From assembly GCA_021324685.1 (NCBI GenBank), contig JAJPIQ010000045.1, forward strand, positions 1 to 64,000: a stretch of 64,000 nt of DNA. Direction: 5' to 3'. Below, in pieces: positions 1-50,922 of this stretch. Source of the stretch: Bacteroidota bacterium (GTDB lineage Bacteria > Bacteroidota > Ignavibacteria > Palsa-1295). Position numbers and translations under genes: made by a program. How positions within the stretch are numbered: position 1 is the stretch's first letter; each line of letters begins with the position of its first letter. The notes under the pieces are model-generated. The model ran no database searches and was not told the DNA's origin. It saw only the letters and a program-made list of their open reading frames with translations.

Positions 1-49
1 GTAATCAGAGATCATTCTTAACTCTTCATTCTTCATTGTGAATTGACAT

Positions 50-124
50 GGTGGGCGTAGCTCAGTTGGTTAGAGCGCCAGGTTGTGGCCCTGGAGGTCG
101 TGGGTTCGAAGCCCATCGCTCACC
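50..124 (+). tRNA. tRNA-His (anticodon GTG)
   Basis: A complete cloverleaf can be drawn: acceptor stem 51-57 with 117-123, anticodon stem 78-82 with 90-94, anticodon GTG at 85-87, and T stem 100-104 with 112-116. G50 lies opposite C124, which is the extra G-1:C73 pair that marks histidine tRNAs. The 3' CCA is not encoded, since CTA follows C125. It reads the same way as gltX downstream, but a long hairpin lies between the two. Confidence 0.97.
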
Positions 125-129
125 CTACA

Positions 130-180
130 TAAGTGCTAAGTGCTAAGTCCTAAGTGCTGAGTATCGCTCAGCACTTAGCA
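130..180. repeat. Short direct repeats ending in a 12-bp hairpin
   Basis: The motif AAGTGCT recurs three times (131, 138 and 152) and the last copy forms a perfect 12-bp inverted repeat, CTAAGTGCTGAG at 150-161 and its complement at 167-178, with a 5-base loop. It lies directly after tRNA-His and could end transcription of the tRNA, although no T-run follows. It also resembles dispersed intergenic hairpin repeats. Confidence 0.6.
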
Positions 181-231
181 TTTATACTATAGGCTTTCTC
201 TCGGCGCTTAATACGTAGCATCACGAATACA

Positions 232-1671
232 TTGGTACGAGTCCGCTTTGCTCCTTCTCCCACTGGGTATGTCCATGTCGGTTCGCTCCGGACCGCCTTG
301 TACAACTATCTCTTCGCGCGCCATCACAGCGGTGTCAATATTCTTCGCATCGAAGATACCGACCGCACCCGTTACGTCGAAGGGGCCGTCGAAAACATGC
401 TGCGGACAATGGAGTGGGCCGGCATCGCGTTCGATGAAGGTCCGGTGCAGGGCGGCCCTTTCGGACCGTATGTGCAGTCAGAACGGACCGAACTCTATCG
501 CGATCACGCCGATCAACTGATTGCGCACGGTCATGCCTACGCCTGTTTTTGCACTCCGGAACGATTGGACCAGGTACGTAAAGCCCAGCAAGCGGCCGGT
601 ATTCCACCGATGTACGACCGGCTGTGCCGGAATCTCTCGAAGGAAGAGACCGACCGTCGCATTGCGGCCGGCGAGCCGCACGTCGTTCGCCTGCGCGTGC
701 CGATTGGCGAAGCGGTCCGGTTCGAGGACATGATCCGAGGGGAAGTCGAATTCGATTCCAGAACCATCGACGACCAGGTCCTGCTCAAATCCGATGGGTT
801 CCCAACGTATCATCTTGCCAATATTGTCGACGATCACGCGATGCAAATCACCCACGTGATCCGGGGCGAGGAATGGCTTTCTTCGACGCCGAAGCACGTG
901 CTGCTCTACGGTGCTTTCGGATGGGAACCTCCGAAGTTCGCGCATTTGCCGTTGCTTCTGAATGCCGACCGCTCCAAACTTTCCAAGCGACAGGGCGATG
1001 TGGCCGTGGAAGATTATCGCGATAAAGGATACTTGCCGGACGCGCTGATCAATTTTGTCGCGCTGTTGGGATGGAATCCGAGTGCCACCGAAGAAATCTT
1101 CACGATTCACGATCTTATTCGCGACTTCGACCTGGAGCGCGTCAATAAGGCCGGCGCCGTGTTCAATCGCGAAAAGCTCGATTGGATGAATGCGGAGTAT
1201 ATCCGCAAACAATCGCCGGAAGAACTACTCCCCCTCGTACGGCCCCTCGCGCAGGACCGGAACTATGTCGTAAGCGACGATTATCTCGTCGCCGTCATTC
1301 GCTGCATGCAGGAGCGCGTCCGTACCCTGCCCGATTTTGTCGATTTTGCGAGTTATTTTTTCATTCCCCCCGATTTTTCGGACGTAGACGAGAAATATAA
1401 ATCCAAGCACTGGACACCCGAAGCAAAAGAACGGCTTCGCGCACTCCTTCCGGACTTCGAATCGCTCGAGCGATGGGACCACGATTCGCTCGAGCGTGTC
1501 GTTCGAGCGTATTCCGAAGCGAACGGCCTGAGCGCGGGGAAGTTAATTCATCCCATTCGCCTCGCCGTCACCGGCCGCGGCATGGGTCCGGGACTTTTCG
1601 AGCTACTCGCCGTGATCGGAAAACCGGAATCGGTCTCGCGCATTCACCGCGCGCTTGTTACGCTCAGCTAA
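232..1671 (+). CDS. gltX: Glutamate--tRNA ligase (GluRS)
   Basis: Cytosolic class I aminoacyl-tRNA synthetase that charges tRNA-Glu with glutamate using ATP. The 479-residue length is normal. The N-terminus carries the FAPSPTG block and the HIGH-type motif HVGS at residues 15-18, and the KMSKR-type motif KLSKR is at 249-253. C105, C107, Y128 and C132 match the spacing of the zinc-knuckle ligands known in some GluRS enzymes. The start is TTG at 232; it places the catalytic block at the usual distance from the N-terminus, and no strong ribosome-binding site is visible. Whether the enzyme discriminates against tRNA-Gln cannot be judged here. Confidence 0.97.
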   Translation: MVRVRFAPSPTGYVHVGSLRTALYNYLFARHHSGVNILRIEDTDRTRYVEGAVENMLRTMEWAGIAFDEGPVQGGPFGPYVQSERTELYRDHADQLIAHGHAYACFCTPERLDQVRKAQQAAGIPPMYDRLCRNLSKEETDRRIAAGEPHVVRLRVPIGEAVRFEDMIRGEVEFDSRTIDDQVLLKSDGFPTYHLANIVDDHAMQITHVIRGEEWLSSTPKHVLLYGAFGWEPPKFAHLPLLLNADRSKLSKRQGDVAVEDYRDKGYLPDALINFVALLGWNPSATEEIFTIHDLIRDFDLERVNKAGAVFNREKLDWMNAEYIRKQSPEELLPLVRPLAQDRNYVVSDDYLVAVIRCMQERVRTLPDFVDFASYFFIPPDFSDVDEKYKSKHWTPEAKERLRALLPDFESLERWDHDSLERVVRAYSEANGLSAGKLIHPIRLAVTGRGMGPGLFELLAVIGKPESVSRIHRALVTLS

Positions 1672-1731
1672 GGAAAAGCGCCCTGAAGTTGCTCCCCAAT
1701 ACGCAGTAAGGATTATTTTCAAAAGTAAAGA

Positions 1732-1748
1732 ATTTTGGTCCCCAAAAT
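1732..1748. other. 7-bp perfect hairpin downstream of gltX
   Basis: ATTTTGG at 1732-1738 pairs with CCAAAAT at 1742-1748 around a 3-base loop. It lies 60 bases after the gltX stop and 155 bases before the next start. It could be a weak transcription end or a regulatory site for the following gene; no T-run decides between these. Confidence 0.3.
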
Positions 1749-1903
1749 CGGTCGTCCCGATTATCGTTGCTGTTTTTGAACGATAGCGAGGATTTTCCGA
1801 GCGTGGTACGTATTTCTCTCATGCACCGGCCGTTCTGAATCTTCTCGTCGATTCAGTTCCAAAATCGAACGAATTCTCACTTCCATAGTCATGGGGGCAG
1901 GCT

Positions 1904-2452
1904 GTGTTTATTAAATCCATTGTTTTTACCTCGATCTTCTTATTCTTCTCTACCCTGAGCGGGCTGGCGCAAAGCACACTCCATCAGGATACGACTTTTA
2001 CAAAAGGGGAAATGCTTTTAGGGCCACACATTGGCCTTGCGGCATTCGGCAGCGCTCCGTCGTTCGGAGCGAATTTCGAAGAAGGGATTATGAATCCCGG
2101 CGAAGTCGGTCCAGGCTCGATCGGAATCTCGGGCCGGGTAGATTATTTTTCCTTCAGCGATGTCGATTGGCGATATACCTGGATCGCCGTCGGAGTATTT
2201 GCGAATTATCACTTCCAGATGAGCGACAAAGCATGGGATCCTTTTGTCGGCTTAGGTCTCGGATATGAAAATGTGAGCGAAAGCTGGGCCGGCGAAGGGC
2301 TCAGTTATAACTATAACGGAGGCTGGAACAGCGGGCTCTATCTGGCAGGAGATGCCGGAATCCGATACTTTTTCTCTCCGAGCATGGCCGCCCGTGCTCA
2401 ATTAGGCTTCGGCATCACGTACCTCGTCGTGGGTCTCGATTTTCGCTTATAA
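1904..2452 (+). CDS. Small outer-membrane beta-barrel protein
   Basis: A 182-residue protein with a signal peptide (hydrophobic stretch to about residue 22, ending GLAQ). The mature part alternates polar and aromatic residues and is glycine-rich, as in 8-stranded OmpA/OmpW-like barrels, and it ends in an aromatic-hydrophobic strand (GLDFRL). The start is GTG at 1904, preceded by a G-rich stretch at 1892-1899 that may serve as ribosome-binding site. Ligand and function are unknown. The lipoprotein gene follows 50 bases downstream in the same direction, so the two may be cotranscribed. Confidence 0.75.
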   Translation: MFIKSIVFTSIFLFFSTLSGLAQSTLHQDTTFTKGEMLLGPHIGLAAFGSAPSFGANFEEGIMNPGEVGPGSIGISGRVDYFSFSDVDWRYTWIAVGVFANYHFQMSDKAWDPFVGLGLGYENVSESWAGEGLSYNYNGGWNSGLYLAGDAGIRYFFSPSMAARAQLGFGITYLVVGLDFRL

Positions 2453-2502
2453 ATTCCCATCCTGTTAGATGTTGATTTTTTAACCGTTCTAAAAATAAAC
2501 GT

Positions 2503-4023
2503 ATGAAACATATTCCATTTCTCATCCTCGCGGGCATTGTACTAACGATCGGTGGCTGCAAATCGAATTCGACGAACCCCTCGAACCCGAGCGGTTCAGC
2601 ACCCGTCATCCGATCGTTTACCGCTCAACCGGCCGCGATCAATATCGGCGATTCGACCCTACTTTCCTGGGCGATCGATAACGATCCGACGTCCGTAACG
2701 ATCGACCAAAATATTGGCGACGTCACGAACCGAAGTTCGCTCGCACTGTATCCGGCGCAAACCGCGACCTATACGCTTACGGCGAAAAATTCGTCGGGCC
2801 AGGTGACAGCAACAGCGACGGTCACCGTAAACAACCCGAGCGATCCGGGAGCACCGCCAAACCCGCTGAACCTGACAGCGACGACTGGTAATCCGGGAAT
2901 TATTAATCTCAACTGGACCGCCTCGACCGGCGCCTCGAGCTACGCGATCGAACGAAAATCGATCTTTGGATTCGTTCAGATCAATTCCGCAAGCGTCAAT
3001 AGCTTTACCGATGGCGGACTCTACCCCGGCGTGCTCTATACATATCGAGTTCGTGCGCTGAATGCCTCGGGTGCCCATTCGGGATATTCGAACTACGCCT
3101 GGGCGACGGCGCCGGGTACTGCGCCCGTGATCGATCATATTTCAATCATTCCGACCGCCCCTCCGACCCTGCAACCCCTGGGAACCGTGCAATTCACGGC
3201 TACGGCGTACGATGCCTCCGGTAACAATCTCGGCTTCGCGCAAAATATTTTTGGCTGGAATAGCACCGCGCCTCAGATCGTGAGCGTAACGCAAACCGGA
3301 TTAGCGACCGCCGGAAATCAACAAGGCGTCGCCGCAATTACCGCGTCGCTCGGCGGCGTAACATCGAATACCGTGAATGTGAACGTTTCCCTGCAACAAA
3401 ATCACATTCTCGTTATCTTCAACCCCATTAGCGAGGATCCGGGGTTCGCTCCTTATACGGCAGCCCTTGCGAGTTTCGGTGTCGATTATCTGACCGATAA
3501 CAACAATGGCGGCCCCACCACGATCAGCTTCAACCAGATCAAGAGCTACGATCGTGTTTTCTACTGCACGCACAACGATGAACCGGCCGATGCGACGACC
3601 ACCGCTCTGCTTCAGGAGTATGCCATGCAGGCCGGAAAGCGGCTCATCATCATGTGCGGTTCCGACTTCATCGAGAACGACCAGGGTTTCATGTCCTTCC
3701 TGGGGATTTCGAACGATGGCTGGGAGCATACCTCGGACATGTCCTCCATTTTCACGGGCCAGAGCAATACGGCAATGGCCGGCTTCAACTTCATGCGCGT
3801 GGCATCGTTCGACTACACGAGCGATCTTACGCTCGACGAAAGCGGAAAATCGCTGGCGGCGCTAACGGGAACGTTAACGTCGGACCCGGCCACCCCGATC
3901 GTCATCTCGACCCAGTCGAATGTCGGTAGCAATACGAAAGTCTTTTATAATGGGTTTGTGCTGGAAAATGTGCAGGCCGATAAACAAACGGCCTTCATGT
4001 CGCTCCTGATCAATAGCTTCTGA
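2503..4023 (+). CDS. Multidomain lipoprotein: Ig-like, fibronectin III, Big_2-like and Rossmann-like C-terminal domain
   Basis: A 506-residue protein starting with a lipoprotein signal (lipobox IGGC, lipidated Cys about residue 19) and a Ser/Asn/Pro-rich linker. Domains in order: an Ig-like domain (about 33-108), a fibronectin type III domain (about 118-200, with the WTAS and SYAIERK pattern), a bacterial Ig-like domain (about 206-295), and a C-terminal alpha/beta domain (about 300-506). The last domain opens with a buried strand (ILVIFNP) and resembles ThuA/class I glutamine-amidotransferase-like folds. No catalytic Cys-His pair was recognised, so it is probably a binding or structural module. 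A bidirectional terminator follows. Confidence 0.7.
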   Translation: MKHIPFLILAGIVLTIGGCKSNSTNPSNPSGSAPVIRSFTAQPAAINIGDSTLLSWAIDNDPTSVTIDQNIGDVTNRSSLALYPAQTATYTLTAKNSSGQVTATATVTVNNPSDPGAPPNPLNLTATTGNPGIINLNWTASTGASSYAIERKSIFGFVQINSASVNSFTDGGLYPGVLYTYRVRALNASGAHSGYSNYAWATAPGTAPVIDHISIIPTAPPTLQPLGTVQFTATAYDASGNNLGFAQNIFGWNSTAPQIVSVTQTGLATAGNQQGVAAITASLGGVTSNTVNVNVSLQQNHILVIFNPISEDPGFAPYTAALASFGVDYLTDNNNGGPTTISFNQIKSYDRVFYCTHNDEPADATTTALLQEYAMQAGKRLIIMCGSDFIENDQGFMSFLGISNDGWEHTSDMSSIFTGQSNTAMAGFNFMRVASFDYTSDLTLDESGKSLAALTGTLTSDPATPIVISTQSNVGSNTKVFYNGFVLENVQADKQTAFMSLLINSF

Positions 4024-6532: not shown

Positions 6533-7677
6533 AGGACATATTCCTCGTATCGCTTCAAAAAATCGGGATCGCGCTTTCGCAGGTTTTCGCGATCGACTTT
6601 TCCGGACCGCGTCATCAATTTATACGCAAATGGAATAGGGTCCAGGTGCATGTAGTCTTTCAGGTTTTCGAAAAGCAAAAGGCTTTCATAGGCCGCTTCC
6701 TGATACTCTTCGACGATCGGGCGGCGGGCGGCTTCGAATTCGAGGAGGGCGTCCGGCACGCGTTCGGAAAGGCGCAGGGCATGAAAGAGCGCGATCGAAT
6801 CTTCGAGCGCAAGTTTCGTTCCTGAACCGATCGAAAAATGGACGGTCGCGAGGGCATCGCCCAGGAGCACGATATTCGTTCCGGCCGTGGAGTTCCCAGG
6901 ACCGCACCACCAATGCCGGTTCCGTACGAGCACAAAATTGATCCACTTCGAATAGTTCGAAAGCAGTTCCGCGCCGTGCAGGTCGAGATGAAAGACGTCT
7001 TCGAGATAGCGCCGCGTCGAGGCCTCGTCCATGTCCTGAAATCCAGCGGTCGTCCAGGTCTCTTCATCGCATTCGACGATAAACGTACTCGTGGTGGTAT
7101 CGAACTGATACGAATGCGCCGCAAACACCCCGGCCGTATTTTCGCGGAACGTCAGCGTCAGGCCTTTGAAGAGATGCCGCGTGCCGTACCAGATATATCG
7201 GTTCGTCCGCGTCGAAAGATCGGGTTTGAAGCACGATTCATATTGGGAACGGACTTCGCTCATGACCCCATCGGCACCGACCACCAGTTCGTAATTCCGG
7301 AACTCCGAAAGATCGGCGACGGGCGACCGAAAATGAAGCTTCACTCCGAGTTCCGTGCAGCGCTCCTGAAGGATGCGCAGGATTTCGATCCGTGCAATAC
7401 CGGAAAATTTATTTCCACGAACGGTGACCGTTTCGTCACGGTGCACGATATCGACGTTATCCCACATCGTAAACCGGTCGGTGATCGCCCGGTACGTCGG
7501 CTCGTCCTCCGCCTGAAGATAGCTGAGCGTTTTATCCGAAAAGACGACGCCCCAGCCGAACGTATCGTCCGGCGCATTCCGCTCGAACAGATCGATCTCG
7601 ATATCCGGGCGCCACTTTTTAACGAGTAGCGAAAAATAAAGCCCTGCCGGGCCGCCTCCGATGACTGCAATCTTCAT
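6529..7677 (-). CDS. FAD-dependent monooxygenase, salicylyl-/anthraniloyl-CoA hydroxylase or VioD-like
   Basis: A 382-residue group A flavin monooxygenase. The ADP-binding motif GGGPAG is at residues 7-12, the DG motif (VGADGV) near residue 133, and the GD motif is followed by HFSIGSGTKLALED near 285-305. That last block and the RYIWYGT and TSTFIVECDEETW segments are typical of the monooxygenase half of salicylyl-CoA 5-hydroxylase/anthraniloyl-CoA reductase and of the tryptophan hydroxylase VioD. It is a stand-alone domain with no reductase half. The substrate is unknown and no aromatic-degradation or violacein genes are nearby. Its only operon partner is the overlapping DUF5686 gene. Confidence 0.82.
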   Translation of the reverse strand: MKIAVIGGGPAGLYFSLLVKKWRPDIEIDLFERNAPDDTFGWGVVFSDKTLSYLQAEDEPTYRAITDRFTMWDNVDIVHRDETVTVRGNKFSGIARIEILRILQERCTELGVKLHFRSPVADLSEFRNYELVVGADGVMSEVRSQYESCFKPDLSTRTNRYIWYGTRHLFKGLTLTFRENTAGVFAAHSYQFDTTTSTFIVECDEETWTTAGFQDMDEASTRRYLEDVFHLDLHGAELLSNYSKWINFVLVRNRHWWCGPGNSTAGTNIVLLGDALATVHFSIGSGTKLALEDSIALFHALRLSERVPDALLEFEAARRPIVEEYQEAAYESLLLFENLKDYMHLDPIPFAYKLMTRSGKVDRENLRKRDPDFLKRYEEYVL

Positions 7678-7774
7678 AGCGTCGTTGGAAACAGTCCATC
7701 GTTTTTATAAATCCCAGTGAAAATAGACGGGAAGCAGAACTGAAATCGGCGTTCCTGCGTCTAAGTAGCGTTCC

Positions 7775-8869
7775 ATGCGTTTCGCGCTCTCTTTTTGCCT
7801 TCTGCTCGCCATCCGTGCGAGCCCCCTCTTTGCCCAGATGGCGGTTCCCGCCACGCTCGAGCGTCCGGTCGCACCCGACTCGACCGATTACGCACTCTGG
7901 TCTCGCGAAGCCGGCGTTCATGGCCTTCGCTCCTTTACCGTCACGACCCTCGATATCGACGCGAGCGGCTCACACCCCGATACGCTCGGCACGCACTACG
8001 GCCGCGTTACTTTTACGCGAGCGGGAACCCATGTACTCCTTCGCGCCGACCACCCCATTGCCGAAGAAGGCGATTCCCTGCAAATCGAGTTCGACAGCGC
8101 CGGGCATCCCATCGCCGAAACCCAGTATGCGAACGGCCGTTCGATCTCGATCGAACGCTGGCGGTACGACACGGCCGGCCGGCTCGAGCGCGACTGGTAC
8201 GAATACGCCGAGGACGGCTGGCACGCACCGCAGGAATTTTTTTATGACGAGAACGGCGCGATCGAGCGCGTCGAACTTCGAAACCCCGACGGCAGCCTGC
8301 AGGGTAACCATTTTTTTTATCGCCCTTCGACCCCCGACCGGGCGAATCTCGTGATGGAGTACGACACGTCGTACATTAACGGACATGGAATGCTCACCGC
8401 CATCCAGTTGACGGCGTTCGATTCCGAGGGGCGCGTCGAACGGTATCTCTACCGCAGCCTCGGTTTCGATCGCAAACTTCGCCCGCCTTTCGGTTTTTTG
8501 AATGTCTATCGCGATTCGGCGCGGGTCTATAAAATGCAACAATTCCCTCTCAAACCGGGCCCTGGAAACGACGAGCGGGTTTCCTATCTGAACGAACCTT
8601 CCCGATGGCTGCGCTACGATAGCACCGAACGAACCGACGAAGAAACATCGCTCGACAGCACCGGCATGAAAATCACCGAGCGCGACCGCTTTCTCGAGGA
8701 CGAGCGATTTCTGTCCAGCGACCTCAGGAGCGAACGAGCTCCCATCCAAAACGTCGAGTGCCATTATACACCGCGTGGACTTTTGGAATCGATCCGCACC
8801 GAAAACCGGCGCACCGGCTGGACGCGGGTGCTCGTCTTTACTTATACCTACACGCTCACCGGGCCGTAA
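7775..8869 (+). CDS. Secreted protein with YD-repeat-like segments, unknown function
   Basis: I do not recognise this 364-residue protein as a named family. It has a signal peptide (residues 1-20, ending LFAQ). The mature part repeats patterns such as YDTAGRLERDWYEY, FYDENGAIERVEL and FDSEGRVERYLY, which resemble degenerate YD/RHS-type strands spaced about 30-40 residues apart and suggest an all-beta protein. It starts 97 bases from the divergent monooxygenase gene, so the two may share a promoter region. The product is probably periplasmic or surface exposed. Confidence 0.65.
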   Translation: MRFALSFCLLLAIRASPLFAQMAVPATLERPVAPDSTDYALWSREAGVHGLRSFTVTTLDIDASGSHPDTLGTHYGRVTFTRAGTHVLLRADHPIAEEGDSLQIEFDSAGHPIAETQYANGRSISIERWRYDTAGRLERDWYEYAEDGWHAPQEFFYDENGAIERVELRNPDGSLQGNHFFYRPSTPDRANLVMEYDTSYINGHGMLTAIQLTAFDSEGRVERYLYRSLGFDRKLRPPFGFLNVYRDSARVYKMQQFPLKPGPGNDERVSYLNEPSRWLRYDSTERTDEETSLDSTGMKITERDRFLEDERFLSSDLRSERAPIQNVECHYTPRGLLESIRTENRRTGWTRVLVFTYTYTLTGP

Positions 8870-8926
8870 AAGAATCGCACTCGCCCGGCCGTAGAATGAG
8901 AGAGGCGTCCTCCGTGTTCTGCGCCT

Positions 8927-9892
8927 GTGATCTCAACGTTTACACCGCCCTCTTATCCGGCGATTTCGTCTTCTCCGGACGATCCGCGTCTTGCCTCGTT
9001 CATCCAGAGGCCCGAGGAACTCGATATCGCCGACGTCGTCATACTTGGGGTTCCCACCGACGAAGGCATTCGCCGCAATGGCGGTCGCCCTGGAGCGAGT
9101 GCGGCGCCCTCGGCCATTCGAGAATGGCTCGGAACGCTTACGCCCTACGCCGGGCCGCAATTTAAGCAGCACCTTGATACGCTTCGCATCGTCGACGTGG
9201 GCGACATCCCACACAGCGATTTGGAAACAATGCACGCGCATGCTTCTGAGGTCGTAAAGCAGTTCATCGCCGCAAAAAAAATCGTGATCGCGCTCGGCGG
9301 CGGACATGATATTACCTATCCTCTTGCGAGTGGCTTTAAACAAGGCGCGAATTCCGACATTGGGATCGTGAATATCGACGCGCACCTCGACGTCCGCGAA
9401 AAAAAGAACGGCCGGCATCACTCGGGCAGCAGTTTTCGGCTCCTCCTCGAAGAAGGGATCGTGGCCGGACATCAATTTGCCGAGATCGGGATTCAATCCT
9501 TCGTTACGGCGCGCGAGCATTTCGAGTGGGTGGTCCGGCAGGGAGCACGTATCCTTACCTTCGAAGACGCGACGACGGCGCACCTTCCCCATGCTTTCGA
9601 AGAGTGCGAATTCGCGATCTCCCATGGCGATCCGGAGTTCCCAGCCTATCTTTCCTTCGATGTGGACTGTGTCCGCGCCTCCGACGCGCCCGGCGTCAGC
9701 GCCCCGGCTCCCATCGGATTTTTGGCCGAAGAAGCATACGAATTGGCCACGGCGGCGGGGCTTTCGAAAAACGTCCGAATGCTGGACATCGTCGAAGTCA
9801 GTCCGCCGCACGATATCGACAGCAGGACCTCTCGCCTCGCGGCGCGCATGATCGCAGCCTTTTTAGCCGGTGTCGCAAACCGCAACGTATAA
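8927..9892 (+). CDS. Arginase/agmatinase/formiminoglutamase-family hydrolase
   Basis: A 321-residue ureohydrolase-fold enzyme with all manganese-ligand motifs: GGGHD (H127), NIDAHLD (D151, H153, D155) and SFDVD (D245, D247). The family hydrolyses guanidino or formimidoyl groups. The HSGSSFR stretch after the second motif resembles formimidoylglutamase (HutG) more than agmatinase, but no other hut gene is present, so the substrate is open. The start is GTG at 8927. It is followed 41 bases downstream by pdxS. Confidence 0.85.
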
Positions 9893-9933
9893 AAAATTGC
9901 ACTAAGCCCGAAAAAAAATTGTTATCCGTGTCA

Positions 9934-10869
9934 ATGAAGACAAACGGTCACATCGAAACCAACGGTCATACCAAAAACGGCCAGACGTCCAAAACGGGCA
10001 CGACGCTCGTTAAACGCGCCTTTCCGCAGATGCTGAAAGGTGGCGTCATTATGGACGTGGTCAACGCCGAACAGGCCAGGATCGCGGAGGACGCCGGCGC
10101 CGTCGCCGTGATGGCGCTCGAACGAGTTCCCGCGGACATTCGCGCCATGGGCGGCGTCGCCCGCATGTCCGACCCGGAACTGATTACACAGATCATCGAA
10201 GCCGTTTCGATCCCTGTGATGGCGAAAGCGCGGATCGGGCATTTTGTCGAAGCGCAGATCCTCCAGGCGCTCGGCGTCGATTGCGTCGATGAGAGCGAAG
10301 TCCTTACGATGGCGGACGAAGAGAACCACATCGACAAATCGAAATTCGAAATTCCGTTCGTCTGCGGCGCTCGCAATCTTGGCGAAGCGCTCCGCCGAAT
10401 TGCCGAAGGAGCGGCGATGATCCGCACCAAAGGCGAAGCCGGAACGGGAGATGTCGTCGAAGCCGTACGACACGCGCGCGCGATCTTCGGCGAAATTCGG
10501 AAGCTCCAATCGCTTTCGAAGGACGAATTATATAGTGCCGCAAAAAATCTTGCCGCCCCGCTCGATCTCGTACAGGACATTGCGGCGACAGGAAAACTTC
10601 CCGTTGTGAATTTTGCAGCCGGCGGGATTGCCACCCCGGCCGATGCCGCACTCCTGATGCAACTGGGCGTCGACGGCGTCTTTGTCGGTTCGGGAATTTT
10701 CAAGTCCGGCGATCCCGCCCGGAGGGCCGCGGCCATTGTGAAAGCGACGACCTACTACAGCGATCCCTCGGTGCTCGCCGAAGTCAGCCGCGGCCTGGGT
10801 GAGCCGATGGTCGGGCGCACGGTCGCCTCGCTCGAAGAGCGGGAATTACTGGCGGTCCGTGGATTATAG
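9934..10869 (+). CDS. pdxS: Pyridoxal 5'-phosphate synthase subunit PdxS
   Basis: A 311-residue TIM-barrel lyase that makes PLP from ribose 5-phosphate, glyceraldehyde 3-phosphate and ammonia in a dodecamer with PdxT. D41 ([10 protein letters not shown]), K98 (VMAKAR) and K166 (RTKGEAG) correspond to the catalytic Asp and the two Schiff-base lysines; their 68-residue spacing matches the family. The start is ATG at 9934; the open frame continues upstream inside the preceding gene, but that part is not coding. The first 24 residues are a polar Asn/Thr/Gly/His-rich extension ahead of the conserved core. pdxT follows after 44 bases. Confidence 0.97.
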
Positions 10870-36609: not shown

Positions 36610-38586
36610 TTATCGCAGAAGCGACATGCTCTTTGAAATGCTGCCTTCCTCCGTTTGGAGCGTATAGCGATAGACTCCGTTTGGAAGTTGGGCCGCGTTA
36701 AACACTGCGGTGTGCTCTCCGGCTCCCAGGCGTCCATTCATTATTGTCGCCACGGTTCGGCCCAACTGGTCGGTTACTGTAAGGGTAACATTCGACGCTT
36801 GCGGGAGTGTAAAATCGATCGCGGAAGAAGAAGCGACAGGATTAGGATAGTTTGAAATGCTTGTTACCACCGGCACAGCGGAGGGCGATACACCCGAGAA
36901 CTGCAAGGCCAGCGTATCATGGAAAAAGTTGACGACATCCCAATCGGGCGCGCCATTACTTGCCGTGGTTCCCGCGGCGGTATCGGCACCGTACATAAGG
37001 GTCGGAACAAAATCTGCAGGAGAGTTACCGTTCCAATCGGAAGCTTGCGGCCATCGGAAATCGATTTTCCCAAAGGTATTCGGGTCCCCGGTATTCGTAC
37101 GATAGGGTGCGGGTTGCGTCCAGGTCAGGCCACCGTCCCTCGTGCTTTGATAAAAAATGCTAGCATAAAATTTATACGTGGTGTCCGTTACGAACACACT
37201 ATCGCTGATTGGGAACGTCTGATAAAAGACGGCAAATGCTTTTGCGTCGCCATTCGGGGCAAAGACGGGATACGCGATCCAATCGTCATTTTCCTTTAGT
37301 TCTGGTTTTTCGAACGACGTTAGCGTACCATTCAGGTTATTGGCTGCGGTATCGTTCGCTGCATTCGTTACAATATCGACGTCCGTATTCGAAGTCACAT
37401 CGTAGACGTGCAGGCTCAACTGATCGGGATAATAATAATTCGTGTCATTGCTGAAGGTCTGTGGAACGCTGTTATACAGGACACGCGCGTTTTCTCCATA
37501 ATAATAGAAATCGATTCCGGTCCACGGGCCCGTAAAGAGTTCGGAGCCGGCGGCCGTCGATCCCTGATCGACGATCGGTTGAATGGGCTCAAAATCATTC
37601 GGCCAGGTCTTTCCCCCATCCGTCGATTCGAGAAAGTACAGATCCGCTTCCGGAGTCGTATAGTCCGTGCTGCGCCACAGGAGTCCTACTTTACCGGCCG
37701 GGGAAACACGAAGCACATAATCGCCGCTCTGCATGAGGCCAGCGCCGCCATGATTTCCATTGTTCGATCCGATCTCGGCATTCCAACCGTTCCATGTCGC
37801 ATGCCCGGTGCCGTCTAACGCGAAGGTCCCGAATCGAATATAATCGGACTGGGTAACGCTCGAGTACGAAACCGAGCCGACCATATATACCGTCGATCCA
37901 TCCGGCGAGATACCGATATACGGCCACAGAATACCGGCGGCACCCTGCGGGATACTTCCGTAGGTCCCCGAAGTGCCACACTCTGTCATCTCGAAATTGC
38001 CGTCACCCGGATTTCCTTTTTCAACCCACAATGCACATTCGTAGTCCGTGGTGGACGTATCATGCGCGAGTGGCAGCATGAACCGATGGGCAGCGATAAT
38101 GGGAACATATTTCTCCCCTCGCTTATAAAGGATCATACACGGAAACCCTGTTTTCACATTCGTCAATGCAACCGGCGTTTTCCAGGTGTGACCGCCGTCG
38201 CTACTGAACGTATAAAAGACCCTTCGGCTAAGGAAATTGGTATCTTTGACCCAATCGCTTGCAAGTTCCATAATGACCGCATGGACGTTCATCGGATTGC
38301 TGGGATCGACCTGAATGTTATGAAGTGCTCGGCCATCACTTTGCTGCTGCTCTAATCGCCCACTTACCGGCATGAGGTCTGCGCCGGGAATGCTGATCGC
38401 TTCCGGGAGCGAATTTCCCTTGATTGCTTCATTGAAGCTTTGTCCGAAAGAATGGGTCGTTTGCTCGCTCGAAGAGAGCTGACTCGGTGAAATGGAACGC
38501 GGTCCTAATGGCATTTGCGCATGGACCATCGAGCCACCCAAAAATGAAAGTGCGAAAAAAGCTACTGACGGTAGAAATCTCTTCAT
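36610..38586 (-). CDS. T9SS-exported sialidase-like (BNR) protein
   Basis: A 658-residue protein with a signal peptide ending VHAQ. Three Asp-box motifs are clear (FSSDGGHTW, ESTDGGKTW, STRDGGLTW) within a propeller-like body, so a sialidase-like fold is likely although the arginine triad of true sialidases was not identified. The C-terminus is a T9SS type A sorting domain (ISNYPNPVASSSAIDFTLPQ to the final MSLLR). It has its own terminator downstream and is followed by the receptor operon in the same direction. Confidence 0.85.
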   Translation of the reverse strand: MKRFLPSVAFFALSFLGGSMVHAQMPLGPRSISPSQLSSSEQTTHSFGQSFNEAIKGNSLPEAISIPGADLMPVSGRLEQQQSDGRALHNIQVDPSNPMNVHAVIMELASDWVKDTNFLSRRVFYTFSSDGGHTWKTPVALTNVKTGFPCMILYKRGEKYVPIIAAHRFMLPLAHDTSTTDYECALWVEKGNPGDGNFEMTECGTSGTYGSIPQGAAGILWPYIGISPDGSTVYMVGSVSYSSVTQSDYIRFGTFALDGTGHATWNGWNAEIGSNNGNHGGAGLMQSGDYVLRVSPAGKVGLLWRSTDYTTPEADLYFLESTDGGKTWPNDFEPIQPIVDQGSTAAGSELFTGPWTGIDFYYYGENARVLYNSVPQTFSNDTNYYYPDQLSLHVYDVTSNTDVDIVTNAANDTAANNLNGTLTSFEKPELKENDDWIAYPVFAPNGDAKAFAVFYQTFPISDSVFVTDTTYKFYASIFYQSTRDGGLTWTQPAPYRTNTGDPNTFGKIDFRWPQASDWNGNSPADFVPTLMYGADTAAGTTASNGAPDWDVVNFFHDTLALQFSGVSPSAVPVVTSISNYPNPVASSSAIDFTLPQASNVTLTVTDQLGRTVATIMNGRLGAGEHTAVFNAAQLPNGVYRYTLQTEEGSISKSMSLLR

Positions 38587-41061: not shown

Positions 41062-41089
41062 TAAGCTTTTCCCTTTAAGCTTTTCCCTT
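41062..41089. repeat. 14-bp tandem duplication
   Basis: TAAGCTTTTCCCTT occurs twice in a row, at 41062-41075 and 41076-41089. The second copy overlaps the stop codon end of the minus-strand gene that finishes at 41088. Confidence 0.85.
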
Positions 41090-43061
41090 ATGGTATAAAG
41101 AAATTCGCACCAATCCGGAGGCCCGCGGGGATGTCCTGATAAAACGGAGAGGCATGATGGAAAGCATCGCGCCAGGAAATACGAACAAGGCCGAGCGTCA
41201 GATCCGAGTGTGAAAGCAGCACCATCGCTCCGACCGTCGTTTCAACATCCCACGCGAGCGGTCCTGTGGGATGTGGCTCTCGGCCATCGAGCGAGGTAAC
41301 GAAGTCCACCGGTTCCGTGGTGATCGCGAAATGCGGAGAAAAATAGTAACGAAGGATATAGCCTGCTTCGATCGACTGAAGTTCTTCCGCATCTTCCGCA
41401 AACGCAACGTCGAGACCACTCGAAAATCCCGGGTTTCTTTCACCGCTCCCATTGCGGTCAAAGAGGAGTTGAACCGATGCACCCAGAAGTCGATTGGCGT
41501 ATGGGTTGAGCTCGAAATTCAGGATCGTTCCAGAAATACTCATTCCGGAGCCGAGTTTCGCGGTCGCGATCGTGGCCGAATCCGGGACCTTCCAACCGGC
41601 TCCAGCAAATGGCATCGGCTTGTCACTCCCAATCCATTCCGAGAACCATTTTCCAATGTCCCAGCCATCCGACCATCCAATGGCGACACCGTAATCATTC
41701 GGGATCCACCCCGAAGTCCAGAAGCGCGGTGCTTGGAGTTGGAACCAAAAATGACGCTCGATAATACCTTCGATATCCAAAAACGAAATCAGATTTCGAG
41801 TTTCGCCTTTGTGCCCGGAGGTAAAAACAAACTCCCGCTCGAAGGGAACTGTCCGGACTTCAAAATCGTCGGCAAATTCGAACGCAAGGCCGTATCCCAC
41901 GCGAAGCAGTGACGAAGAAGTTCCTCCCGGATAATACCGTCTTCCGTAGTGAAACACAAGTCCCGGTGTAACCGGCGCAACATCGGGAATGGGAATATCG
42001 AGCAAGAGTCCTGCGGTATAATCTCGCGCGAGAATTCCGTTTACCGTTGTCGAATGAACGTCAAGGCCGGCATGGACGAGCGGCCGCCATTCGCGTTCAT
42101 CGCTTCGCAAGTGCCGCTGCGGCGCTACGCCCTTCCACCCGACAAAAAATTCGTGTAGATACGCATTCCAGGAAGCCCGTTCGAACGCCGTATCGACGCC
42201 ATGGAACTCTTTTTCTCGCAGGACATTCTCGGTGAGTATAACCAGCAGCTCTTCCAGGGCACGCGCTGCTTCCACTGCTCGGGGCGCGAGGCAATCGTCG
42301 TCCACCTGATAAGGATTCGTGGAAGAGGAACAGGTCGGGTCCTTTGTGGCGTCGTCCCAATATTCGAAATCGCGTTTATCGGAGAGTTGATGTCCCCACG
42401 GCCCGGCATAAAATCGTTTGGCGTACGGATGAAAAAAATAGGGAATAATGGCGGTCGGTTCCCAAACTTTGAGGTAGATGATCCGCCAATTCGAATCGCG
42501 TTCGACATGCGCTGCCGAATACGAATCGGCGATGCAGTGCATGAGGCCATACACATCATGATCGCCGGCGCGTGCGGCAAGCGCGTTGTTGAGCACGAGG
42601 TTGAACATCGAGGTCATAAAGGCAATCGCACGTGGATATGCCGAGTCATAGAGCATGTGCGGATAACCATAGGTAGGATCGGTGGTCGTATCCCAATAGA
42701 CATCGCTCGAGCGTGCCATAAAATGGAAGCACTGAGAGTTTCCCTCGAATTGGCGGGAAAGGACATAATCCAAGTTGCCACTGCGAACAATTGGCAGCGC
42801 ATTGAGCGGGTCTTTTGTATTTCCATTCGGCCAACTCCGCGGCCGGTCCAAAATCCGATATGCAATGAGTGCATCCAGTGCGTCCTTGCCGGAAAACGGT
42901 CGTCCGGCGATCATCGAAAGCCGCTCGATGTTTGCCTGGGCGAGTAAATGGCGGTAGGCGGCGGCCTCGATCACATTATGACCATTTGCCGTGAAGGCAT
43001 AAGCCGCGCCTGCAATGCAGACCGAGATTACGGCGCACGAATAACTCAGCCATGAGCGCAT
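41088..43061 (-). CDS. Predicted phospholipase C/P1-nuclease-like domain fused to a beta-barrel-like C-terminal region
   Basis: A 657-residue exported protein (signal peptide about 1-22). The N-terminal about 300 residues are helical, with NGHNVIEAAAYRHLL at the start and GDHDVYGLMHCIADSYSAAH followed by VERDSN near 165-190. This histidine/aspartate layout recalls zinc-dependent phospholipase C and S1/P1 nucleases. The C-terminal about 330 residues consist of amphipathic strands (GLVFHYGRRYYPGG, AGYILRYYFSPHF) and end in GANFFIP, suggesting an outer-membrane barrel or beta domain. Enzyme activity is inferred, not shown. The gene stands alone on the minus strand. Confidence 0.6.
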   Translation of the reverse strand: MRSWLSYSCAVISVCIAGAAYAFTANGHNVIEAAAYRHLLAQANIERLSMIAGRPFSGKDALDALIAYRILDRPRSWPNGNTKDPLNALPIVRSGNLDYVLSRQFEGNSQCFHFMARSSDVYWDTTTDPTYGYPHMLYDSAYPRAIAFMTSMFNLVLNNALAARAGDHDVYGLMHCIADSYSAAHVERDSNWRIIYLKVWEPTAIIPYFFHPYAKRFYAGPWGHQLSDKRDFEYWDDATKDPTCSSSTNPYQVDDDCLAPRAVEAARALEELLVILTENVLREKEFHGVDTAFERASWNAYLHEFFVGWKGVAPQRHLRSDEREWRPLVHAGLDVHSTTVNGILARDYTAGLLLDIPIPDVAPVTPGLVFHYGRRYYPGGTSSSLLRVGYGLAFEFADDFEVRTVPFEREFVFTSGHKGETRNLISFLDIEGIIERHFWFQLQAPRFWTSGWIPNDYGVAIGWSDGWDIGKWFSEWIGSDKPMPFAGAGWKVPDSATIATAKLGSGMSISGTILNFELNPYANRLLGASVQLLFDRNGSGERNPGFSSGLDVAFAEDAEELQSIEAGYILRYYFSPHFAITTEPVDFVTSLDGREPHPTGPLAWDVETTVGAMVLLSHSDLTLGLVRISWRDAFHHASPFYQDIPAGLRIGANFFIP

Positions 43062-46499: not shown

Positions 46500-48452
46500 T
46501 CAATGCACCACGATGATCGCTCCAATTTTCGCGGCCGTGCCCATGCGCAATCGATACGTATAGCTTCCGGCCGGAAGCGCCGAAAGGTCGAGCACATATT
46601 CATGCTCGGCTGGAGCAAGCGCGCCGAAATTCACACGTTCCACTTCCTCGCCGAGACTATTGAACATTTGGAGTTCACCCTCCGAAGCCGATCTAGACGT
46701 GAAGTGAAGGTGCAATGCACCCGTCGTCGGATTCGGTGAAATGGTTACCGCACTTTGGGAAATACTTTCAGAACCGACCGAGGACGATGCGAACGCAAAA
46801 TGATTAGGTGCGCCTGGCATTCCCCAACCAAAATCGTTATATGCCGCGACGGTCCAGTAATACGTTTGTCCAGCCTGGAACGTCGAGGCGGGCGCAACAT
46901 CGCTCGTGTCGTTCATATCACTTTGGAGAAGATCGGAGAAAACCGTATCTTTCATCGCTTTGTCGGAGGTCACTGCAATCGCATACGACTGAGTTCCTTT
47001 ATTGCCCACGTGCCACAAGAACGTTACATCGCTATCTGCAACAACAGCATTGTTCGCAGGAGAAATAAGAGCTACGGTACTCGGCGCAAGACCGACCGAA
47101 AACGCTGCGGCTTCCGACCACGGACCCGTCCCCTTCGTATTCTTTGCCTGCACACGCCAGAAATATGTTGTGCTATCTTTCAGCACTCCGAACTTAAATG
47201 TTGTATCGGTAAGAACTGAATCGTTGGCAACGATTCCCTTCTTGAAGAGGGAATCCGTTCCTATCTCGATGTGATACTTCGTTGCAAGCTGAACGCTGTT
47301 CCAGGTAAACGTTACGCTATCGAAATTGACTGTCGTATCGATCGAAGGCAGCACAAGGATGGCCTGCGTCGGATAGCCGGTAAGATCGGGATTGAAATCG
47401 ACCTTCACATTCTGCCCCTCAAAGTCAATTGTTTTCGTAACAGGCGTAGGAAATGGGCCGCCCGATGCCGTGACCGTCACACTTCCCGATCCGGAAAATG
47501 GAATTGCGTATCCGCCGGAACCGGACGTGATGGCATAATACGATCCGCTTGAGACCGTGATCTTCACACCGGAATCGCCTTCTCCAATATCATAGAAATT
47601 ATTATGATTATTATCGCTATAGGCAACGCCGAGAATAAAATGTTTTCCAGCGTCCCCCAGATCAAGCGTGCATACCAGGGGGCCCGTGTGCGTAGGATAA
47701 CTACCTTGAGGATACGGAATCATGCCCGGCCCGCATTCGGTATAGCCGGGATTGACCGTATCCGAGCCACTCTTAAATTCGAGGCAATTATTGCGGTGCC
47801 CCCATTGAGTGTCGTTCGTGCTCCCGAAGTCGATCAGCCATCCCGCATAGGCATCATACACACTCTTGGCATAGGCCGCGGCATTTTCTCCGACGTAGGG
47901 TGGTCCGCCAAACAAACCTGGATAACCTGCTTTTTGAGCGCGATCGGATGGCCACGAACCGTCGGTCCCCTGATGACCCTGATAATTGTTGTCGATCATG
48001 TCCTGACTGTGGACCCGCGCTGCCGTGAGAAGGCTCGCATTCATTGCAAGCGGCTGTTTAGGCACATACGTTGCGAAATCTGTTTTAATGCTCGCTCTCG
48101 TCGGCTCATTTGGATCCTGACCCGCCCAATAAGTAAATTCAAAAGATACGTCGGGATCGGTCGTATTCGAAATCTCAACTCCTGCCGCCGGCGGATTCAT
48201 TCGCGCGCGATTGAGCAGTTCAAGATAATATTGCTCTTCGTTTGTCGGATGCCCGCAATCGTATTGAGTGGCAAGAGGCTGCTCCGCGACCGCCGGCTGA
48301 TTTTGCTCAATTAAATTCATCCGAGGCGACACAGGCGGCGGCAGTACCGGACAGACCTGCGACTGCGCAAAAACGTTCGACGGAACAACGAATGACGCAT
48401 ACGTCCCTATGACAGCGAATAACGCAGCTCGAAATAAAGGAATCGGTCTCAT
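46500..48452 (-). CDS. T9SS-exported CAP/SCP-domain protein
   Basis: A 650-residue secreted protein with a signal peptide ending VFAQ. A CAP (SCP/PR-1-like) domain covers about residues 65-260 (EEQYYLELLNRARMNPPAAG, AARVHSQDMIDNNYQGHQGT, VGENAAAY). It is followed by a calcium-binding-like loop (SDNNHNNFYDIGEGDSG), two fibronectin-like domains and a T9SS type A domain (ISPNPTTGALHLHF). ATG 48452 starts the signal peptide; the open frame continues upstream as non-coding sequence. CAP proteins in bacteria are mostly of unknown function. Confidence 0.85.
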   Translation of the reverse strand: MRPIPLFRAALFAVIGTYASFVVPSNVFAQSQVCPVLPPPVSPRMNLIEQNQPAVAEQPLATQYDCGHPTNEEQYYLELLNRARMNPPAAGVEISNTTDPDVSFEFTYWAGQDPNEPTRASIKTDFATYVPKQPLAMNASLLTAARVHSQDMIDNNYQGHQGTDGSWPSDRAQKAGYPGLFGGPPYVGENAAAYAKSVYDAYAGWLIDFGSTNDTQWGHRNNCLEFKSGSDTVNPGYTECGPGMIPYPQGSYPTHTGPLVCTLDLGDAGKHFILGVAYSDNNHNNFYDIGEGDSGVKITVSSGSYYAITSGSGGYAIPFSGSGSVTVTASGGPFPTPVTKTIDFEGQNVKVDFNPDLTGYPTQAILVLPSIDTTVNFDSVTFTWNSVQLATKYHIEIGTDSLFKKGIVANDSVLTDTTFKFGVLKDSTTYFWRVQAKNTKGTGPWSEAAAFSVGLAPSTVALISPANNAVVADSDVTFLWHVGNKGTQSYAIAVTSDKAMKDTVFSDLLQSDMNDTSDVAPASTFQAGQTYYWTVAAYNDFGWGMPGAPNHFAFASSSVGSESISQSAVTISPNPTTGALHLHFTSRSASEGELQMFNSLGEEVERVNFGALAPAEHEYVLDLSALPAGSYTYRLRMGTAAKIGAIIVVH

Positions 48453-48600
48453 GGTCAGGAACGGAAAAATTGTTTTCCTGCTAACCCGTTGGGCAGCATA
48501 ACGAATCCCGTTCGAACCCTTGTCGGTTGCTTGTAACTTTCGCACTTTTAAAGCATTCTTGATAAGACTGCTCTGCATAGCGGTCCCAACCGACACGATT

Positions 48601-50922
48601 ATGAGATCTTTCCACACGTTCCCCACGACATGTGTTGCATTCCTTACATTATTCGTCCTCGCTTCCGGCTGCCGCAAGGTAAGTTCTCCGACAATGCCAC
48701 CCGAAGGCGCACAGATTACCACGACGATCGCCGGTCGCATTGTCGATGAATCCGGCGCGCCGATTTCGGGCGTTACCGTTACGGAACAAACCGGCTCGGC
48801 AACGACCGATGCCAACGGCCTTTTCTTCATTGCCAACACAAGCGTCCCTTCGGAGCGGACATTTATTCTTGCAAAGAAATCGGGATATTTCGATGGCGCC
48901 CGCGCTGCGGTCCCAACGCCCAATGGCGTCACCTATATGCAGATCACACTCGCGAGCAATACGCCCATCGGGACGGTCGATGCCACAAGCGGGGGAATGG
49001 TTTCCCTGCCGTCCGGCGGCAGCGTGTCGCTCCTGCCTGGAGGAGTTGTCACCTCTTCCGGCACGCCGTACACTGGGACGGTTTCCGTCAGCGCAAAACA
49101 CCTCGACCCGTCGAATGGGAATTTTACCGGCCTCTTTGCCGGCGACCTCACCGGCCAGCAAACCGACGGTTCCCAAACGGAACTTCAGAGCTACGGCGTC
49201 ATCGTCACCGAATTACACGGCTCCAATGGTGAAACGCTTCAACCGGCGCCCGGAAATCCCGCCACGCTCACGATGCCGATCGCGGCTTCGCAGCAATCGA
49301 CCGCACCCGTGTCCACTCCTCTCTGGTATTTCGACGAAACGCTCGGAATGTGGAAGGAAGAAGGAAGCGCAACGAAGCAAGGGAGCAGTTATGTGGGGAG
49401 AGTCCAGCATTTCAGCTTTTGGAATTATGATATGTACTGCCCCTATGGGACGCTTACAGGCGTGATCGTTTGTAACGACGTTCCGATTCCCGGGGTGGTC
49501 GTGAATCTCGGTGCATTAGTCGAAGGAGGCCAACCGTACGTAGTTACCGATGCGGCCGGCCGCTTCAAGGTTCGCGTCCCAGCTAATTCCAATGCGGTAC
49601 AATTGCAAGTCCTGGGGAGTCAAAATAATGGCCTCTATTGGACCAATAACCCCATCACCGAAAATATCCCGGCGAACGTAACGACAGACGTTGGTCAAAT
49701 CGCTCTCAGCTCCCCGTGCCCGAGTTATCTGACGGGTCGTCTCGTCGATTGCGGCGGTGAACCGGTGGCGGGAATGATTCTTGCTTCGTTCCACGGTGGA
49801 ATGAGTTATGTCTATTCGCAGGATGGTAACTTTACATTATTTGTTGGCGCGGGTGAGACAGTATCCATCGGAGCCACCGCCGGAAATGGCGCAACCGCAC
49901 AGCCGCAAACCCTGACTGCGGGCAGTCAGGGAAGTGTGGTCTCGATGAACGATATAGTTGCATGCAATGGAACTAGCAGCGATGTGAACCGCGATATTTC
50001 CGGCAGCTTCTCTGGTTCGTCGCTCGCATTCAATTCAGACGGGTCTCAAATTGCAGCCTTGAGTAGTGCTACCAATCAAATTGCGATCTACAACGTAAGT
50101 TCCGGCACGGTAACAATCCAGTTCACGGCGGCATCGGCCGTTGCAAGTTTGCAATTTAGCGCTGACGGTTCGAAAATTTTGGCGCTCGAGGGCAATACCT
50201 GGTACCAGGGAAAATTATTTGCGAACCAGTTCGAATGCTGGAACACGAACGGAACAAAACTCACGACCACGCCAGTATCCGCTAATTCCGGGATCTTTAC
50301 CAAGGATGGTTCCGGCGTTATTGCATGGACGGCTAATGGCGTTATTCAATACGATCTTTCCACCAATACGATCGTAAAAACATTTTCGCTTCCAAGTCCC
50401 ACGTGGCTGAATGGAGCACCAACGATCGAATGGACATCGAGCGTTGTCGGGCTTGCTGGAAACGGATCGCAACTGATTGCCATCTCGAATTCCGCGATCT
50501 ATATGTGGGACCTTGCATCGGATCAGTCGATTGACACTATCCAGGTCGGATCGACTGGGGATAGTATCATTGCGAATTATAATTCCGTTTTAAGCCCGGA
50601 CGGAACGATCATTGGCATTTATAAACTCGTATCGGTCGCGTTTTATAATACACAATCGCGGACAAAAATCAGTACAGGAACGATTGCCGTACCTTCTCAA
50701 TATTCCTATGCACTAGTGGCCGACGATACACGTTTCATCGCCCAATATCAATCGGGCGGAGGCTCCTCTGTAGGGCTCTTCCATATTACCGATGGAACTT
50801 CGTCCTATCTTTTTGATGCACCGGCAAGCTTTGGGAATTCTTCCGGCGTGGCAATCAGCTCCGACGGCAAACTTGCCGCAGCGGTCTATGCCAATGAGAT
50901 TCGTATTTGGAATGTAAAGTAG
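48601..50922 (+). CDS. Lipoprotein with carboxypeptidase-regulatory-like and WD40-like regions
   Basis: A 773-residue lipoprotein (lipobox LASGC, Cys near residue 24). Residues about 40-115 form a carboxypeptidase-regulatory-like domain (IAGRIVDESGAPISGVTVTE); another such unit starts near TGVIVCNDVPIPGVVVNLG and a third near TGRLVDCGGEPVAGM. From about residue 465 a WD40/PD40-like propeller follows (LAFNSDGSQIAAL, LQFSADGSKILAL, LSPDGTIIGIY, AISSDGKLAAAVYANEIRIW). It probably sits on the outer membrane. The gene is divergent from the CAP gene across 148 bases and ends 54 bases from the end of ftsK. Confidence 0.75.
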   Translation: MRSFHTFPTTCVAFLTLFVLASGCRKVSSPTMPPEGAQITTTIAGRIVDESGAPISGVTVTEQTGSATTDANGLFFIANTSVPSERTFILAKKSGYFDGARAAVPTPNGVTYMQITLASNTPIGTVDATSGGMVSLPSGGSVSLLPGGVVTSSGTPYTGTVSVSAKHLDPSNGNFTGLFAGDLTGQQTDGSQTELQSYGVIVTELHGSNGETLQPAPGNPATLTMPIAASQQSTAPVSTPLWYFDETLGMWKEEGSATKQGSSYVGRVQHFSFWNYDMYCPYGTLTGVIVCNDVPIPGVVVNLGALVEGGQPYVVTDAAGRFKVRVPANSNAVQLQVLGSQNNGLYWTNNPITENIPANVTTDVGQIALSSPCPSYLTGRLVDCGGEPVAGMILASFHGGMSYVYSQDGNFTLFVGAGETVSIGATAGNGATAQPQTLTAGSQGSVVSMNDIVACNGTSSDVNRDISGSFSGSSLAFNSDGSQIAALSSATNQIAIYNVSSGTVTIQFTAASAVASLQFSADGSKILALEGNTWYQGKLFANQFECWNTNGTKLTTTPVSANSGIFTKDGSGVIAWTANGVIQYDLSTNTIVKTFSLPSPTWLNGAPTIEWTSSVVGLAGNGSQLIAISNSAIYMWDLASDQSIDTIQVGSTGDSIIANYNSVLSPDGTIIGIYKLVSVAFYNTQSRTKISTGTIAVPSQYSYALVADDTRFIAQYQSGGGSSVGLFHITDGTSSYLFDAPASFGNSSGVAISSDGKLAAAVYANEIRIWNVK

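Follow-up and report, generated by a model that had tools for sequence, protein, structure and literature searches.

A P1 nuclease-like metal-ligand pattern joined to a predicted outer-membrane barrel in a genome of the Ignavibacteria

Among the closest described systems, the S1/P1 nuclease SmNuc1 has the published metal ligands W27, H32, D71, H88, H141, D145, H151, H175 and D179 (PMC11705217), and in the phospholipase C of Listeria (PC-PLC) the third metal is bound by the main chain of W1 (PMC10576769). Hydrolases carried on barrels are also on record, namely EstA (type Va) and PlpD/FplA (type Vd) (PMC6555100), as are Omp85 proteins with a PF00149 domain (PMC4104836). Layouts that join an enzyme to a barrel are therefore already known; the combination of a P1 nuclease or zinc-dependent phospholipase C (PLC) with a barrel was not found in the family libraries searched or in the open literature (judged by title). 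Here we describe a 657-residue protein that, on balance, we predict to be an outer-membrane-tethered phosphodiesterase.

The window (that is, the whole stretch of 64,000 nucleotides that was analysed) contains the gene exactly as first described, as an intact frame with an ATG start and 657 codons. Its features are as follows.

41088..43061, minus strand: whole gene, open reading frame (ORF) of 657 amino acids with an ATG start (from the ORF list and intact homologues)
42996..43061, minus strand: predicted signal peptide, residues 1–22, cut between AYA and FTANGH (from the (-3,-1) rule)
42072..42995, minus strand: N-terminal P1 nuclease/PLC-like domain, residues 23–330 (from the ligand pattern, alignments and hhalign to same-class S1/P1 proteins)
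42978..42980, minus strand: H28 (mature H6), predicted Zn3 ligand, invariant and aligned to H6 of P1-type proteins
42768..42770, minus strand: D98 (mature D76), predicted Zn1 ligand, invariant in alignment A4 and aligned to the WAD/D ligand position
42723..42725, minus strand: H113 (mature H91), predicted Zn1 ligand, invariant and aligned with P1-type proteins
42507..42539, minus strand: core motif H175-x3-D179-x5-H185, invariant in 7/7 sequences and aligned to HxxGDxxxPxH
42378..42392, minus strand: H224-x3-D228, predicted Zn2 ligands, invariant in full-length homologues
41091..42071, minus strand: C-terminal outer-membrane beta-barrel domain, residues ~328–657 (from AlphaFold strands, Foldseek and amphipathicity)

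The upstream neighbour is a proton-pumping pyrophosphatase gene (PF03030), and downstream lie rpsF-ssb-rplI-engB (rpsF and ssb assigned by Pfam, rplI and engB by reading ORFs). Given the terminator-like hairpins on both flanks, that is, a hairpin with a T-run (CCCCTCG-CGAAA-CGAGGGG-TTTTTTG; CCCCTCG...CGAGGGGTTTTTTG) at about 43131-43105 that ends the upstream unit and a second terminator-like site at 40988-40972 after the gene, the gene is probably transcribed alone as a monocistronic unit. This neighbourhood is common to G001 only; the gene sits elsewhere in G005 and G006. Two further minus-strand genes of the window (36610-38586 and 46500-48932) encode proteins that carry type IX secretion sorting tails (PF18962); one of them has a weak BNR-like match, the other CAP and fibronectin-like domains.

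The protein is kept as an intact frame in four of the seven genomes of its own genus (53–65% identity). A protein search within the genus found full-length relatives at 65% identity to the window protein in G001, 53% in G005 and 61–63% in G006 (the deposited record L001 is the same sequence as the G006 contig), and no full-length relative in G002–G004. Homologues of about 29% identity occur in a second genus from another family, g69, in the genomes G125 and G289, the latter added by a profile search of 391 genomes of the class. The same kind of search across 396 genomes of the phylum gave no further family members, and 13 genomes of the order and 323 of the class, at E values up to 1, gave besides the known homologues only scattered matches above 0.03; those that were translated proved unrelated and were rejected as family members. 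Relatives were not found in viral contigs and plasmids. The family is rare and patchily distributed. In G125 the gene is split across two contig ends (L006 on contig C9 and L007 on contig C104), which overlap by ~49 residues with a few differences; this would fit an assembly break combined with strain variation, or else two copies that are nearly identical.

The preliminary description had pointed to histidine and aspartate motifs of the P1 nuclease and PLC kind in the N-terminal half, and conservation bears this out. Across the five complete sequences, 79 of the 308 positions of the N-terminal domain are invariant, and the only invariant histidines are exactly five (mature 6, 91, 153, 163 and 202), at P1-nuclease spacing. 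Adding D76, D157 and D206 gives a set that matches the tri-zinc template of S1/P1 nucleases with its nine ligands, the first residue included, as residue 1, H6, D76...H91, H153xxxD157xxxxxH163 and H202xxxD206. The SmNuc1 spacings (W+5=H, D-H 17, H+4=D, H+10=H and H+4=D) compare with +5, 15, +4, +10 and +4 in the window protein, in which D98 stands 15 residues before H113. When the invariant residues were permuted, the partial pattern (H6, D-x13-18-H and HxxxDx5H in order) arose in 2e-5 of trials, a figure that serves as a guide only, as the template was picked after the finding had been seen. P1-type proteins usually have a proline two residues before the last motif histidine; here it is missing or rare, with SxAH in place of PxH. 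At the position of H224-x3-D228 the g69 proteins read HWFPED, so that their last pair may be read as HxxxE, as in PLC. A complete metal-site pattern is kept in this protein, although standard family profiles detect nothing.

A permitted signal-peptidase cut, by the (-3,-1) rule, lies exactly 5 residues ahead of the first invariant histidine in five of six homologues; the sixth, from G125, has proline at -1 and a poor cut site. A cut at this distance is what an N-terminal residue acting as a ligand needs. Mature residue 1 is F, W or H across the homologues rather than an invariant W.

By Pfam, the protein belongs to neither the S1/P1 nor the PLC family. The profile search against these families that had been proposed at the outset returned nothing: Pfam, NCBIfam and PDB sequence scans up to E 10 gave no P1 or PLC relative, with no Pfam match to PF02265 (S1/P1 nuclease) at E 10 for any of the six homologue sequences and none to PF00882 (zinc-dependent PLC). 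Matches to 9me0 VP1 (PDB, E 0.62) and phrog_8307 (PHROGs, E 0.14) look like chance and were set aside. An unguided default MAFFT alignment matches the five histidines column for column with those of same-class P1/PLC-type proteins (in alignment A7 the fifth ligand pair is shifted by a gap). When the mature domains were compared by hhalign with four same-class S1/P1 proteins, the score was 33.0 (E 6e-4), against 23.0 for the best of 60 column-shuffles and 12.6 for the reversed profile; with signal peptides kept, E was 1.7e-5. The same comparison stayed at noise level for 14 same-class PLC-like proteins (score 16) and for PF00882-type proteins. Given that the alignment brings the five histidines together and that the S1/P1 score, though modest, exceeds all shuffles, but that the PLC profiles give noise and the library scans are empty, we regard remote homology of the N-terminal domain to P1, judged from sequence, as likely and not established.

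AlphaFold with the six family rows gave a mean pLDDT of 42 and did not resolve the N-terminal domain. With 20 rows the mean was 58, in a model that is partly circular and not independent, as its alignment held P1-type rows (13 of the 20). This model is good at N-terminal domain residues 10–50, in helices near 230–280 and in many barrel strands; mature residues 70–146 and 172–215 have pLDDT below 50. Among the 50 Foldseek matches listed, both models found outer-membrane barrels almost throughout: the OmpA transmembrane domain (TM-score by target 0.66–0.67 in both models), OmpW, NspA, PcoB, CymA, OmpG, FadL, a T9SS translocon barrel and the autotransporter barrels NalP, EspP, EstA, BrkA and AaaA. 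These 50 included no P1/PLC structure, the models being of low confidence over much of the N-terminal domain. Of the P1/PLC domain and barrel first described as joined, the full ligand set and the C-terminal barrel are supported, and the P1/PLC fold with its ligands clustered in space is putative.

The C-terminal half, earlier claimed to be an outer-membrane beta domain, is just that by these predictions. It holds 21 amphipathic-beta windows, whereas 1000 shuffled versions average 13.0 and none has as many as 21; the N-terminal half shows no such excess by the same count. The antiparallel strands of the C-terminal half, about 14–16 in a low-confidence model, match outer-membrane barrels; strand pLDDT is 70–91 in the first half of the barrel, and high confidence is limited to roughly that half. 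With a Sec signal, amphipathic antiparallel strands and a barrel fold, the predicted assignment as an outer-membrane barrel is sound. The barrel profile alone gave a match to a PorV/PorQ-like FadL-type protein, too weak (E 0.002) to be adopted as homology. The protein has no Pfam match of any kind, so that neither an Omp85 barrel nor POTRA, as in type Vd, was found. Identity within the genus is 45–60% for the barrel versus 63–73% for the N-terminal domain, so the enzyme part looks more constrained.

We suggest that the protein would be exported by Sec and that signal peptidase would expose F23, which would coordinate one of three zinc ions through its amino group and carbonyl. The residues holding these ions would be H28, D98, H113, H175, D179, H185, H224 and D228, an arrangement like that of S1/P1 nucleases and zinc phospholipases C. 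The barrel would insert in the outer membrane and keep the enzyme there, where it may cut phosphodiester bonds of phospholipid head groups, nucleotides or nucleic acids; a phosphatase would then remove phosphate from the product. The periplasmic face is likelier than the outside: when a barrel at the C-terminus has an even strand count, the domain ahead of it stays in the periplasm by default and reaches the surface only if it is actively exported. Surface exposure is at best as likely as an enzyme tethered on the periplasmic side, and we rank the latter higher. An enzyme using an N-terminus made by signal peptidase as a ligand would probably fold in the periplasm.

The barrel might instead act as a type Va autotransporter, as in EstA, with the zinc enzyme outside the cell. 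An N-terminal enzyme with a C-terminal barrel is indeed the EstA layout (PMC6555100), and autotransporter barrels occur among the Foldseek matches, yet they match no better than porin, OmpA or FadL; moreover, the predicted strands number about 14–16 rather than 12, a pore-spanning linker helix was not identified, and a zinc site folded in the periplasm around the processed N-terminus would probably block passage. We therefore consider surface display unlikely, if the foremost of the alternatives. Ranking just behind it, and likewise improbable, is a membrane-tethered helical metal-binding domain outside the P1/PLC type, with a role such as the sensing of zinc or its uptake at the barrel. The profile and structure tests, which did not confirm the fold, and the scarcity of the usual PxH proline would suit such a domain, but in the order, spacing and uniqueness of its five histidines, and in the predicted position of its N-terminal ligand, the protein agrees with P1.

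The least probable of these readings makes the barrel the working part, that is, a transporter for phosphorylated nutrients, with an N-terminal domain whose sole task is to prepare the substrate on the periplasmic side. Consistent with it are the substrate channels (CymA, OmpG, FadL and PcoB) among the Foldseek matches and the faint PorV/PorQ-like resemblance of the barrel profile; the lower conservation of the barrel argues against it. For the tethered phosphodiesterase that we prefer, a possible context comes from g69, in both genomes of which the homologue is followed, on the same strand and with gaps of 16–119 bases, by an uncharacterised protein of ~205 amino acids and a purple acid phosphatase:

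L101 (G289), 6804-10477, one strand: g69 gene row
L102 (G125), 1-3292, one strand: g69 gene row

The phosphatase is of the tartrate-resistant type (PDB 7ov8, E 2e-32; PF00149, 2e-21). As a phosphodiesterase and a phosphomonoesterase form a natural phosphate-salvage pair, this row suggests phosphate scavenging; an acid phosphatase neighbour was not found in the window's own genus, and the role is therefore only a hint. We tentatively raise, as possible and short of probable, the idea of a new protein family that combines a divergent tri-zinc phosphodiesterase of the P1/PLC type with an outer-membrane barrel; the enzyme would act together with a purple acid phosphatase to obtain phosphate from lipids or nucleic acids at that membrane. 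If true, a tri-zinc phosphodiesterase would join the short list of barrel-borne enzymes, from a group of bacteria that has received little study, and would indicate a membrane-fixed route of phosphate salvage.

The barrel protein is not the only enzyme of the P1 kind in the window's genome, which also encodes a separate, ordinary S1/P1 nuclease (L038; G000 contig C48 10922-11569; PF02265, E 4e-32). In three proteins of the same class (L042, L050 and L053) a long, repeat-containing C-terminal region follows a P1-type domain; the end of L050 resembles a sorting tail, and such layouts may be other ways of attaching or exporting P1-type enzymes.

Compared with known systems, the window protein resembles the S1/P1 nucleases (PF02265; SmNuc1, P1 and S1) in having all nine ligand positions in order and at similar spacing, residue 1 and H+5 included, and differs from them in lacking Pfam-level similarity, in F/W/H at residue 1 and in its fused barrel; its spacers are also longer than those of SmNuc1 (H6-D76, 70 versus 39; H163-H202, 39 versus 24). 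With zinc-dependent PLC (PF00882; the PC-PLC of B. cereus and Listeria) it would share the tri-metal chemistry and the N-terminal residue as a ligand, both predicted here, whereas it has no PF00882 match, a profile comparison at noise and a fused barrel. EstA-type esterase autotransporters have the same order of N-terminal enzyme and C-terminal outer-membrane barrel with a passenger that is not cleaved off, but EstA is a surface-exposed GDSL alpha/beta hydrolase on a 12-strand barrel, with no sequence relation found. PlpD (a patatin) and the PF00149 metallo-Omp85 group likewise carry a hydrolase on an outer-membrane barrel; their barrel is of the Omp85 type (in PlpD also with POTRA), neither of which the Pfam scan found in the window protein, and the PF00149 group is, like the enzyme proposed here, a metalloenzyme.
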